A stretch of DNA of 64,000 nucleotides from Microbacterium dextranolyticum (GTDB taxonomy: Bacteria > Actinomycetota > Actinomycetes > Actinomycetales > Microbacteriaceae): assembly GCF_016907295.1 (NCBI RefSeq), contig NZ_JAFBBR010000001.1:1612001-1676000 (forward strand), written 5' to 3'. The translations under genes and the position numbers were made by a program. Under the pieces are notes generated by a model. That model was given only the letters and a program-made list of their open reading frames with translations, searched no databases and was not told where the DNA came from. The stretch's first letter is position 1. The number at the start of each line of letters is the position of its first letter. This document shows positions 5,782 to 63,325 of the stretch, in pieces.

Positions 5782-5854
5782 TGGGCGATACCAGACTCGA
5801 ACTGATGACCTCTTCCGTGTGAAGGAAGCGCGCTACCAACTGCGCCAATCGCCC
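5782..5854 (-). tRNA. tRNA-Val (CAC)
   Basis: 73-nt cloverleaf. Acceptor arm GGGCGAT/ATCGCCC, T arm with GTTCGAGTC, anticodon stem CTTCC/GGAAG and loop TTCACAC, giving anticodon CAC for GTG valine codons. The 3' CCA is not fully encoded. It faces away from the three-tRNA cluster that begins 160 bp further on. Confidence 0.95.
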
Positions 5855-5954
5855 GTGGCCGCGAGGGCCGACACACGATGCTACCCGATGCGTGGCCCCG
5901 GCGACGAATCGAGTGCCGAGCGAACGGCGAGACACGCGCGGGCTGCACTCGGTT

Positions 5955-5982
5955 TTGCGATGTCCCGAATCTGGGCTAAAGT
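5955..5982 (+). promoter_or_regulatory. Promoter of the Gly-Cys-Val tRNA cluster
   Basis: TTGCGA (5955-5960) and TAAAGT (5977-5982) with a 16-bp spacer form a near-consensus housekeeping sigma promoter, with the start expected about 25 nt before tRNA-Gly. The rest of 5855-6013 shows nothing recognisable. Confidence 0.6.
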
Positions 5983-6013
5983 CGATCAAGTTCCCGGGGC
6001 AACCAGGGAGCAC

Positions 6014-6086
6014 GCGGATGTAGCGCAGTTGGTAGCGCATAACCTTGCCAAGGTTAGGGTCGCGAGTTCGAGTCTCGTCATCCGCT
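6014..6086 (+). tRNA. tRNA-Gly (GCC)
   Basis: 73-nt cloverleaf with acceptor GCGGATG/CATCCGC, anticodon stem TAACC/GGTTA and loop TTGCCAA, giving anticodon GCC. First of a three-tRNA transcript. Confidence 0.95.
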
Positions 6087-6149
6087 CGAGTGCAGGTGTC
6101 TTCCCAGGTCTGAACCTGGGCTGATTCCGACACGTGGGTCGAACCACAT

Positions 6150-6220
6150 GGTGGCGTGGCCGAGCGGCTAGGCACCGGCCTGCAAAGCCGTTTACACGGG
6201 TTCGAATCCCGTCGCCACCT
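6150..6220 (+). tRNA. tRNA-Cys (GCA)
   Basis: 71-nt cloverleaf with acceptor GGTGGCG/CGCCACC, loop CTGCAAA (anticodon GCA) and T arm GGGTTCGAATCCC. The outermost anticodon-stem pair is a C-T mismatch as I read it. Second in the cluster. Confidence 0.94.
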
Positions 6221-6246
6221 CGCTCATAACTGAACAGCCTGTATAG

Positions 6247-6318
6247 GCGCGATTGGCGCAGCGGTAGCGCGCTTCCCTGACACGGAAGAGGTCACTGGTT
6301 CGATCCCAGTATCGCGCA
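6247..6318 (+). tRNA. tRNA-Val (GAC)
   Basis: 72-nt cloverleaf with acceptor GCGCGAT/ATCGCGC, anticodon stem CTTCC/GGAAG and loop CTGACAC, giving anticodon GAC for GTC/GTT. It is related to the minus-strand tRNA-Val(CAC) 400 bp away, which has the same anticodon stem. Third in the cluster, followed at once by a terminator. Confidence 0.95.
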
Positions 6319-60700: not shown

Positions 60701-61059
60701 TGCAGGAGCTCGGCTTCCGCCTGGTCGCGACGGAGGGGACCGCCGAGATCCTCGCGCGCAACGGCATCCGCGTCGACATCGTGAACAAGTACTCGGCGAC
60801 GCAGGTCTCGGGGGAGCGGAACGTCGTCGACCTCATCAACGCCGGTGAGATCGACATCGTCGTGAACACCCCCTCGGGGGGGATCGCCCGCGCCGACGGG
60901 TACGAGATCCGCGCCGCGGCCGTCGCCGCCGACAAGGCGCTGTTCACCACGATGGCCGTCCTCGGTGCCGCGGTCAGTGCGCTGCCGGTGCTCCGGACCG
61001 GCTTCGAGGTGCGGAGCCTGCAGGAGTACGCCGCCGACCGCGCCGCGGCCCGCGGATGA
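57769..61059 (+). CDS. carB: Carbamoyl-phosphate synthase large subunit
   Basis: 1096 residues; makes carbamoyl phosphate for pyrimidines and arginine. Two homologous ATP-grasp halves: the first starts [32 protein letters not shown], the second [55 protein letters not shown] and [29 protein letters not shown] are the paired catalytic segments. The C-terminal MGS-like allosteric domain (about 945-1096) binds UMP/ornithine-type effectors. Confidence 0.99.
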
Positions 61060-61142
61060 GCGCCGCACGGCACTCGCCGCCGCCTGCTCCCCGGCCCGCG
61101 GCGTCGGCCGTTGCCCCGAGTCGGTCCGGGGCACTCCGGTGA
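61056..61142 (+). CDS. 28-codon bridging ORF between carB and pyrF
   Basis: ATG 61056 overlaps the carB stop (ATGA) and the TGA at 61140-61142 overlaps the pyrF GTG (GTGA), so it joins two coupled junctions exactly where carB and pyrF would otherwise be 79 nt apart. The peptide is Pro/Ala/Arg/Ser-rich ([19 protein letters not shown]) with no recognisable domain. It may serve to carry ribosomes from carB to pyrF rather than make a functional peptide. Chance cannot be excluded. Confidence 0.35.
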
Positions 61143-61972
61143 GCACGTTCGGCCAGCGACTGCGCCAGGCGATCGACGCGCGCGGTCCGCTGTGCGTCGG
61201 CATCGATCCGCATGAGGCGCTGCTACGCGCCTGGGGGCTCGATGCATCGGCCGCGGGCGTGCGGGAATTCGGTCTGCGCACGGTGGATGCCGCGCGCGGG
61301 CGCGCCGGGATCGTGAAGCCCCAGGTCGCGTTCTTCGAGCGCTACGGCTCCGCCGGATTCGCCGCACTCGAGGAGGTCATCGCCGCCGCCCGCGCCGCTG
61401 ACCTGCTGGTGATCGCGGATGCCAAACGCGGAGACATCGGCACGACGATGGACGGCTATGCCGAGGCGTGGCTGCGCCCCGGCGCACCGCTGGAGAGCGA
61501 TGCCGTCACGCTCAGTCCGTACCTCGGCACCGATGCCCTGCACGCCGCACTGACGATGGCCCTCGAACACGACAAGGGTGCTTTCGTCCTCGCTGCGACG
61601 AGCAACCCCGAGGCCGCGGCCCTGCAGAAGGCCCGTGTCGACGAGGAGGAGACCGTCGCGGAACGCGTTGCGCACGACGTCGCCGCTCGCAACATCGGAG
61701 CCCCGGGCTCGCTCGGGCCGATCGGACTCGTCGTGGGCGCCACCGTCGACCGACGGGCGTTCGGTCTCGACGACATCGTCCTGGCCGGGACCCCGATCCT
61801 GGCGCCGGGCTTCGGCGCTCAGGGTGCGCAGCCCGCCGACCTCGGGTCGATCTTCGGGTACGTGGCGTCGCAGGTCGTGGCCAGTGAGAGCCGCAGCGTG
61901 CTCTCGGCCGGCCCCGATGACCTGGCGACGCGGATCGAGGAGCGCGCGGCGCTGTACCGTGGTCAGCGATGA
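61139..61972 (+). CDS. pyrF: Orotidine 5'-phosphate decarboxylase (type 2)
   Basis: 277-residue TIM-barrel enzyme forming [35 protein letters not shown] and the catalytic Lys-Asp array [23 protein letters not shown] are those of the actinobacterial PyrF subfamily. The GTG start is inferred from the overlap with the bridging ORF and the family's usual N-terminus; no better ribosome-binding site is visible. It overlaps the next gene by 4 nt. Confidence 0.96.
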
Positions 61973-62865
61973 GTGAGAAGCGCCGCCCCCCCGAGGTCGA
62001 CCGCGCCGCCGCCTCCCGTCGCGCCGTCGCCGCGCGTCGTGAGCGCGCGGCCCTGAAGCACGATGTCGCCATGCGCGTCATCACCCCGCAGGAGCTGCTG
62101 CGGCGCGCGCTGGAGAACCCGGCCTCGCCGGCGGGCGCCATGCGGGTCACCGAGTACCTGACGGCTCTGCCGGCCATCGGCGAGGGCAAGCGCGATCGCA
62201 TCCTCGCCGATCTCGACATCTCGCCGGTCAAGCGACTGGGCGGACTCGGCACGCGACAGCGCACCGCGCTCTCGCAGTGGCTCGACGGGAGATTCCCCGC
62301 ACCCGCCGCCCGCGCGGGACGCAGCCGCCTGCTCGTGCTGGCCGGCCCGACGGCCGTCGGCAAGGGCACGGTCGCCGCGCACATCCGCGACCACCACCCC
62401 GAGATCCTGCTGTCGGTCTCGGCGACGACGCGGCAACCCCGCCCCGGCGAGGTCCACGGCGAGCACTACTACTTCGTCGACGACGCCGAGTTCGATCGGC
62501 TGATCGCCGCGGGGGAGCTCCTCGAGCACGCCACGGTGCACAACAAGTACCGCTACGGCACGCCCAAGGCGCCCATCGAGGCGGCCCTGGCCGAGGGACG
62601 CACCGTCCTTCTGGAGATCGATCTGCAGGGTGCCCGCCAGGTGCGCGCCGCGGCTCCCGACGCCACTCTCGTCTTCCTGCTGCCGCCGAGCTGGGACGAG
62701 CTCGTGCAACGGCTCGTGGGGCGCGGTACCGAAGACGCCGAGGAGCGGGCGCGGCGTCTGCGCACGGCCAAGACGGAGCTGGCCTCGCAGGGGGAGTTCG
62801 ACTATCGCGTCGTCAACGACGAGGTCGCCCGCGCGGCGGCCGAGGTCGCAGCGCTCGCACGCTGA
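61969..62865 (+). CDS. gmk: Fusion of mycobacterial-type integration host factor (mIHF) and guanylate kinase
   Basis: 298 residues in one frame. The N-terminal ~115 residues match the actinobacterial mIHF: an Arg/Ala-rich start, [78 protein letters not shown], containing the helix-two-turn-helix DNA-binding motif ([13 protein letters not shown]). The C-terminal ~180 residues are guanylate kinase: P-loop [36 protein letters not shown] (GMP site), [14 protein letters not shown] and [11 protein letters not shown]. In Mycobacterium mihF and gmk are separate neighbours. The pyrF overlap ties it to the pyr operon. Confidence 0.9.
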
Positions 62866-62871
62866 TAGAAT
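62866..62871 (+). promoter_or_regulatory. -10 box of rpoZ, possibly leaderless
   Basis: TAGAAT overlaps the gmk stop. It ends 6 nt before an ATG at 62878 that is in frame with rpoZ. The leader 62878-62952 can also fold (ATGCCGC 62878-62884 with GCGGCAT 62901-62907, or CCGCGG 62881-62886 with CCGCGG 62891-62896). Confidence 0.5.
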
Positions 62872-62952
62872 GATCGGATGCCGCGGGCTCCCGCGGCCTT
62901 GCGGCATCCGCATCTCAGATTCTCCACCGCCATCCGATCCTGGAGGTTCATC

Positions 62953-63207
62953 ATGGCTGGACGTGACAAGGGCATCATCGACCCGCCCATCGACGCATTG
63001 CTCGAGAAGGTCGACTCGAAGTACCAGCTGGTCATCTACGCGTCCAAGCGCGCCCGCCAGATCAACGACTACTACTCGGACCTGCACGAGGGCAACCTGT
63101 TCGACAACGTCGGACCGCTCGTGGACTCGAGCGTCGAGGACAAGCCGCTGACGATCGCACTGCACGAGATCCACGAGGACAAGCTGCGCCTGCGTCAGGC
63201 CGACTGA
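62953..63207 (+). CDS. rpoZ: DNA-directed RNA polymerase omega subunit
   Basis: 84 residues. [72 protein letters not shown] is the actinobacterial omega, which helps fold and assemble beta-prime. ATG 62953 has an excellent GGAGG 6 nt upstream. An in-frame ATG at 62878, next to a -10 box, could give a 109-residue leaderless variant with a basic N-terminus; that segment is not conserved in the family as far as I know. Confidence 0.95.
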
Positions 63208-63212
63208 GGTCC

Positions 63213-63243
63213 GCGCCACCGGTCCTGTGACCGTTCGTGGCGC
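63213..63243 (+). terminator. Hairpin after rpoZ
   Basis: GCGCCAC (63213-63219) pairs with GTGGCGC (63237-63243), and the inner CGGTC (63220-63224) with GACCG (63229-63233), giving 12 bp with a 3-nt bulge and a CTGT loop. It begins 6 nt after the rpoZ stop. There is no T run, so termination or RNA processing before metK is only probable. No SAM riboswitch fold is evident in 63244-63325. Confidence 0.5.
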
Positions 63244-63325
63244 TCCACCGTGCCCGCGTTTCCCGCCATGTCGGGGACCGCGGGCATGATTGTCTGCGTA
63301 CCCGCCGAACCCCGAGGAGCATCCG

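Follow-up and report, generated by a model that had tools for sequence, protein, structure and literature searches.

The actinobacterial integration host factors, mIHF (Rv1388) of mycobacteria and sIHF (SCO1480) of Streptomyces coelicolor, are stand-alone proteins of ~105 aa encoded before gmk. In mycobacteria, mIHF is reported to be an essential protein (PMC6155035, PMC10028186). Monomeric binding has been reported for sIHF (PMC10028186), and a homodimer for mIHF-80 (PMC3724605). Bacterial guanylate kinases (Gmk; TIGR03263, with Rv1389 of Mycobacterium tuberculosis as an example) are reported to dimerise in Bacillus subtilis and Escherichia coli and, across several phyla, to be subject to (p)ppGpp inhibition that depends on the lid and on the C-terminal helix of the partner (PMC6783271). 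Sensitivity to (p)ppGpp cannot be assumed for the fused Gmk described below. In eukaryotes, the MAGUK proteins carry a guanylate-kinase-like domain fused to other domains.

In a window of 64,000 nucleotides from Microbacterium dextranolyticum (GCF_016907295.1, contig NZ_JAFBBR010000001.1, positions 1,612,001 to 1,676,000), the two bacterial families meet in one gene, mihF::gmk, a true gene fusion that is conserved across the Microbacteriaceae sampled (Table 1). The N-terminal part is like mIHF and sIHF in its NF041260 domain, its place before gmk, its basic character, its helical model and the residues of the core motif. It differs in being the N-terminal third of a 298-aa chain rather than a stand-alone protein, and because it is joined to Gmk in one frame, the fusion is a member of the actino_IHF family at the domain level only. 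The C-terminal part is like other bacterial Gmk in its complete domain, P-loop and conserved site residues, and differs from them in the DNA-binding-type domain and linker added at its N terminus. The MAGUK proteins likewise join a guanylate kinase fold to other domains, but the fusion retains the P-loop and substrate residues and is the only Gmk above cut-off in its genome, which suggests that it works as an enzyme and not as a binding module.

A full-text literature search, covering titles and the beginnings of abstracts, returned no published description of a mihF::gmk fusion; coverage was limited, and absence is unproven. Guanylate kinase goes unmentioned in the accessible part of PMC4255298, a study of sIHF. 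Source records name the fused proteins plainly 'guanylate kinase', which hides the nucleoid-protein domain, so that surveys of stand-alone genes would score mIHF as missing. The reason for the essentiality of mIHF in mycobacteria is unsettled, and lineages in which mIHF is fused to a metabolic enzyme, or is missing beside a retained kinase, amount to natural experiments. By comparing them in harmless laboratory actinobacteria, one could test directly why mIHF is essential and whether it is linked to guanine nucleotide supply, and the fusion is a natural route to asking what purpose the chromosome-binding half serves.

Two domains in one open reading frame

The fusion ATG overlaps the stop of the upstream ORF, which we take to be pyrF (orotidine 5'-phosphate decarboxylase), as ATGA (61969-61972), an overlap that suggests translational coupling with the upstream frame. 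From there the frame runs for 298 aa with no internal stops. Residues 11-103 score 67.7 bits against the NCBIfam model actino_IHF (NF041260; curated cut-off 60), and residues 42-103 match Pfam H2TH_5 (E 1.1e-10, 41.8 bits, cut-off 27). The remainder matches Pfam Guanylate_kin (PF00625; residues 119-295, E 2.1e-42) and NCBIfam guanyl_kin (TIGR03263; residues 120-296, 217.3 bits, curated cut-off 160.45). An earlier sequence-only reading had proposed an mIHF and a complete guanylate kinase in a single polypeptide, and both domains indeed lie above curated cut-offs in one 298-codon ORF. The same reading extended mIHF from residue 1 to ~115; the domain is present, but its profile stops at 103, and residues from about 104 to 118 are better described as a linker. 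The model type of actino_IHF, 'equivalog_domain', suggests that its curators allow for the domain within larger proteins.

The intact P-loop and nucleotide site, also proposed earlier, are confirmed by 41 kinase residues, the P-loop included, that are common to at least 98% of 214 Gmk rows (among them G126, P127, V130, G131 and K132). The individual roles of the 41 belong to general background on guanylate kinases. A MAGUK-like domain without a kinase site was rejected as an identity because these residues are conserved.

By sequence, the solved relatives are M. tuberculosis Gmk (1s4q/1znw), mIHF (6tob) and S. coelicolor SCO1480 (4itq). Foldseek gives 1s4q as the best match to the kinase half, with 52% identity over the aligned part. 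The 50 Foldseek matches listed are kinases throughout, with none to the N-terminal fold, and the assignment of that fold therefore rests on sequence. Identity with HU/IHF of the E. coli type, presumably Pfam PF00216 (Bac_DNA_binding), was rejected, as Pfam matches at E 0.001 are to two other families only.

Table 1. The mihF::gmk locus and its neighbours, in window coordinates
Feature	Position	Strand	Basis or remark
Upstream ORF, overlapping the fusion gene by 4 nt	60965..61972	+	ORF; start provisional
mihF::gmk fusion gene	61969..62865	+	298 codons plus stop, ATG to stop
Actinobacterial IHF (mIHF/sIHF) domain, residues 11-103	61999..62277	+	NF041260, H2TH_5; 6tob, 4itq by sequence
Linker, residues 104-118	62278..62322	+	between mIHF profile end and kinase domain
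Guanylate kinase domain, residues 119-295	62323..62853	+	TIGR03263, PF00625; Foldseek best match 1s4q
Kinase P-loop GPTAVGKG, residues 126-133	62344..62367	+	sequence
rpoZ (RNA polymerase omega)	62953..63207	+	PF01192 E 1.9e-16; likely ATG 62953 after GGAGG, chosen by eye

A second stand-alone copy of either gene had been flagged as a reason for doubt. The M. dextranolyticum genome is one contig of 3,181,200 bases, rated 100% complete, in which H2TH_5 and Guanylate_kin each have a single match above cut-off, both being the fusion gene; a second mihF or gmk above cut-off was not found in it. Matches below cut-off occur elsewhere in the genome for H2TH_5 (E 0.0021 and 0.119) and Guanylate_kin (E 0.18). 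Among 14 named control genomes, actino_IHF matched one (Corynebacterium glutamicum), and Pfam H2TH_5 matched 10, above cut-off in one.

Distribution, origins and losses

All 29 Microbacterium genomes in the sample, M. dextranolyticum included, carry the fusion. Both Pfam domains are present in all 120 listed homologues of the 8000 scored, and 119 of the 120 are 298 aa long. Across Microbacteriaceae, actino_IHF matched at E 1e-5 or better in 274 of 299 genomes (above cut-off in 250), and the matches listed from this family search lie in open frames of at least 283 aa, save one of 112 aa (G292). Matches were found in 195 of 218 genomes in the order search and in 188 of 196 in the class search, Microbacteriaceae being included in both. 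Two actino_IHF matches per genome were seen in G528, G548, G558, G583, G589, G609, G625 and G680 (class search) and in G212 (Microbacteriaceae search).

We sorted 214 loci, with assignment by domain score, according to whether a single frame holds both mIHF and Gmk; 97 are fused, 90 split and 27 without mIHF, counts that are not frequencies, since the choice of loci aimed at roughly one for each genus or family, with negative genera added. The search for the fusion across Microbacteriaceae, which had been suggested from the sequence, found 84 fused loci, 2 split and 14 without mIHF, so that 84 of the 86 loci with both domains are fused. In Nanopelagicaceae, a freshwater family that we take to be the acI group, a name that one record title carries, all 12 loci are fused (taken from 12 of the family's 17 genomes in the class search). 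Family f45 has one fused locus (L050), four split and two without mIHF. The remaining families contribute 84 split loci and not one fused. Split adjacent mihF and gmk genes occur in 46 sampled families besides Microbacteriaceae, f45 included, in agreement with the earlier statement that the two are separate neighbours in mycobacteria. The 80 named loci comprise 59 fused, 19 split and 2 without mIHF, the fused ones including Actinobacteria bacterium IMCC19121 (CP015605.1) and records of Candidatus Planktophila and Candidatus Nanopelagicaceae.

Both split loci in Microbacteriaceae are open to doubt. The Gmk of L105, from a genome 84% complete, falls on a long branch beside families f22 and f43 rather than with Microbacteriaceae, and the locus is probably on a foreign contig. 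L202 comes from an 86%-complete single-contig genome (G009) in which the reading frame is broken both in the upstream pyrF-like ORF and in the mIHF part; because the upstream frame is broken in the same stretch, sequencing error is the probable cause. Some fusions of Nanopelagicaceae or Microbacterium type sit in records titled Bifidobacterium breve or Streptomycetaceae (metagenomic), Sphingomonas sp. and Candidatus Paceibacterota (L274, L281, L283, L287, L291, L293, L297, L300; P0113; P0121), and these look like wrong labels or mixed assemblies.

On a Gmk tree of 158 rows, Nanopelagicaceae form one clade (95/96, starred) nested among class-level split families by unstarred forks (80/84, 90/94, 93/97), and Microbacteriaceae fall with mostly same-order families at a weak fork (47/93). 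A tree of mIHF plus Gmk (77 rows, 267 columns) recovers Microbacteriaceae at 100/100 (starred) and joins them to four split rows from f6 and f7 at 99/97 (starred), apart from Nanopelagicaceae. At least two origins of the fusion, in Microbacteriaceae and in Nanopelagicaceae, are favoured, and the mIHF plus Gmk tree speaks against a single fused gene that both lineages share by inheritance or by transfer. AU tests with the two lineages held together gave p 0.247 (Gmk alone) and p 0.094 (mIHF plus Gmk) and did not reject that arrangement. L050 is perhaps a third origin; it comes from one multi-contig genome, taken as metagenomic, and lay outside the AU tests.

A gmk gene without mIHF occurs in 14 Microbacteriaceae genomes of five genera (g11, g14, g66, g71 and g82; loci L016-L019, L021-L025, L028 and L032-L035), judged at an actino_IHF threshold of E 1e-5. 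Three of the 14 genomes are incomplete (78-84%), and four more Microbacteriaceae genomes with neither an mIHF nor a gmk match were left out of the count. Among the 13 of these loci that were printed, the pyrF-like frame ends at most 35 nt from the kinase domain in 11, leaving no space there for an mIHF domain. In L034, a long low-complexity Ala/Pro/Thr stretch precedes the kinase. On the Gmk tree a g66/g71 clade (5 rows; 96/80, starred) is nested in the fused clade (89/78), as expected if mIHF was lost after fusion; the other mIHF-less clade (9 rows; 98/98, starred) is weakly placed. The label 'essential', attached to this domain from mycobacteria, is therefore not simply transferable to a family in which five genera have gmk without an mIHF match. 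Family f4, which we suspect to be Bifidobacteriaceae, has no actino_IHF match in 14 listed genomes, and gmk stands alone in four of its loci (L036-L039).

The joined protein and its alternatives

Both halves of the fusion are under purifying selection within the genus, with dN/dS of 0.24 for mIHF and 0.17 for Gmk (406 pairs, not independent); the linker value is 0.43 (387 pairs). We consider a genuine two-domain, chromosome-tethered guanylate kinase to be the best explanation of the gene, and probably the correct one. The fusion chain would be produced and kept whole as a two-domain protein, in which a flexibly tethered N-terminal domain may bind DNA non-specifically and the kinase domain at the C terminus would be the cell's guanylate kinase. 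One molecule would then supply the roles of mIHF and Gmk 1:1, and part of GDP synthesis would be carried on the nucleoid.

An AlphaFold2 model built from 68 sequences, all of which match both Pfam families, has a mean pLDDT of 86.7 and a pTM of 0.60. Both domains are confident, the mIHF half is helical, the start of the linker continues helix 95-108, and residues 113-116 fall below pLDDT 50. Taken together, these values suggest two domains without a fixed arrangement, as tethered domains would give. In M. smegmatis, strains carrying msIHF-EGFP and msIHF-mNeonGreen are reported to grow like the wild type, though msihf is essential (PMC10028186). Going by the strain names, the tag is presumably C-terminal, in which case a C-terminal partner need not harm mIHF function.

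The mIHF half may instead no longer act on DNA and be kept as an appendage that serves the kinase in structure or regulation, through dimerisation, stability or contact with RNA, with chromosome duties taken over by other proteins. This is unlikely in our judgement, although several observations point toward it, among them the absence of the domain from the five genera that keep the kinase. Microbacteriaceae mIHF is markedly diverged, with a mean identity of 36% to unfused same-order mIHF; the ratio of mIHF to Gmk mean (1-id) is 1.76 when Microbacteriaceae are set against split genomes of their order, and 1.06 when split sets are compared with each other. Several basic alignment columns have also been lost, K or R falling from 90% in unfused to 6% in fused Microbacteriaceae sequences at column 8, from 97% to 15% at column 24 and from 89% to 1% at column 95. 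These losses may have altered DNA binding, and to judge from its sequence the Microbacteriaceae domain may have changed in what it binds.

Against an appendage, the mean net charge of mIHF is undiminished (+8.2 in the 84 fused Microbacteriaceae rows and +8.2 in Nanopelagicaceae; +6.8 and +8.1 in the split sets). R23, R26, K30, G71, L93 and Q97 are identical in all 84 fused Microbacteriaceae rows, position 74 is always K or R, positions 88 and 89 (K88 and R89) are basic in 98%, and the GLGxxQ motif is retained. The linker, being of low confidence in the model, does not look like a rigid joint. Moreover, the fused mIHF of Nanopelagicaceae is not specially diverged (ratio 1.13 against class-level split sets; 1.52 for L050), so fusion alone does not force divergence of this domain.

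The chain might also be translated whole and then cut in the linker, with free mIHF and free Gmk acting as they do elsewhere. In favour of this, constraint is weakest in the linker, which is also of low confidence in the model. Against it, the linker's length is narrowly held (12-21 residues in 82 of 84 fused Microbacteriaceae loci, 25 and 45 in the other two) and a Pro/Arg pattern recurs within the genus, neither of which a simple cut site needs. We therefore think cleavage quite improbable as the normal fate of the protein.

Internal initiation, which the sequence-only reading had left open as a way of freeing the kinase, would yield a separate kinase besides the fusion and is very unlikely. 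The commonest in-frame GTG, present in many genus members, encodes the valine in VLAG, immediately ahead of the P-loop; it lies within kinase strand 1, part of which a start there would cut away, and it is unremarkable given that 311 of 744 valine codons in the fusion genes of the genus are GTG. No start codon in the linker is common to all 29 Microbacterium genomes, and a scan of 60900-63300 for one promoter type found no sigma-70-like site. The explanations graded here, the tethered kinase included, are not mutually exclusive.

An artefact (misassembly, frameshift read-through or a decayed duplicate), suggested by the two split-looking loci among 86 and named earlier as a danger, is already refuted for practical purposes and retains virtually no probability, because all 29 genomes sampled from the genus and the family-search rows listed show the same fused frame, and both split loci are dubious.

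Operon and a possible partnership

The fused mIHF domain keeps its place upstream of gmk and rpoZ, with gmk in frame and rpoZ next; the mechanical start of the rpoZ ORF is 62878. Deletion of mihF in M. tuberculosis is reported to require that gmk and rpoZ be supplied, owing to polar effects (PMC6155035), which fits one operon.

A more general proposal is that mIHF and Gmk are partners throughout actinobacteria, which their neighbouring genes would reflect, such that the GMP/GDP (or ppGpp) state would set how much of the mIHF is bound to DNA, or DNA occupancy would set kinase activity, and that the two have since been welded together, probably twice and perhaps thrice. If the fused kinase dimerises as in B. 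subtilis and E. coli, two mIHF domains would also be paired and DNA bridging would be possible. The apparent repetition of the fusion strengthens the case for functional coupling of this kind, and the repeated lack of an mIHF half weakens it; we regard it as conceivable but doubtful.

Elsewhere in the window, four tRNA genes are clustered at positions 5782-6318, three on the forward strand and one on the reverse.
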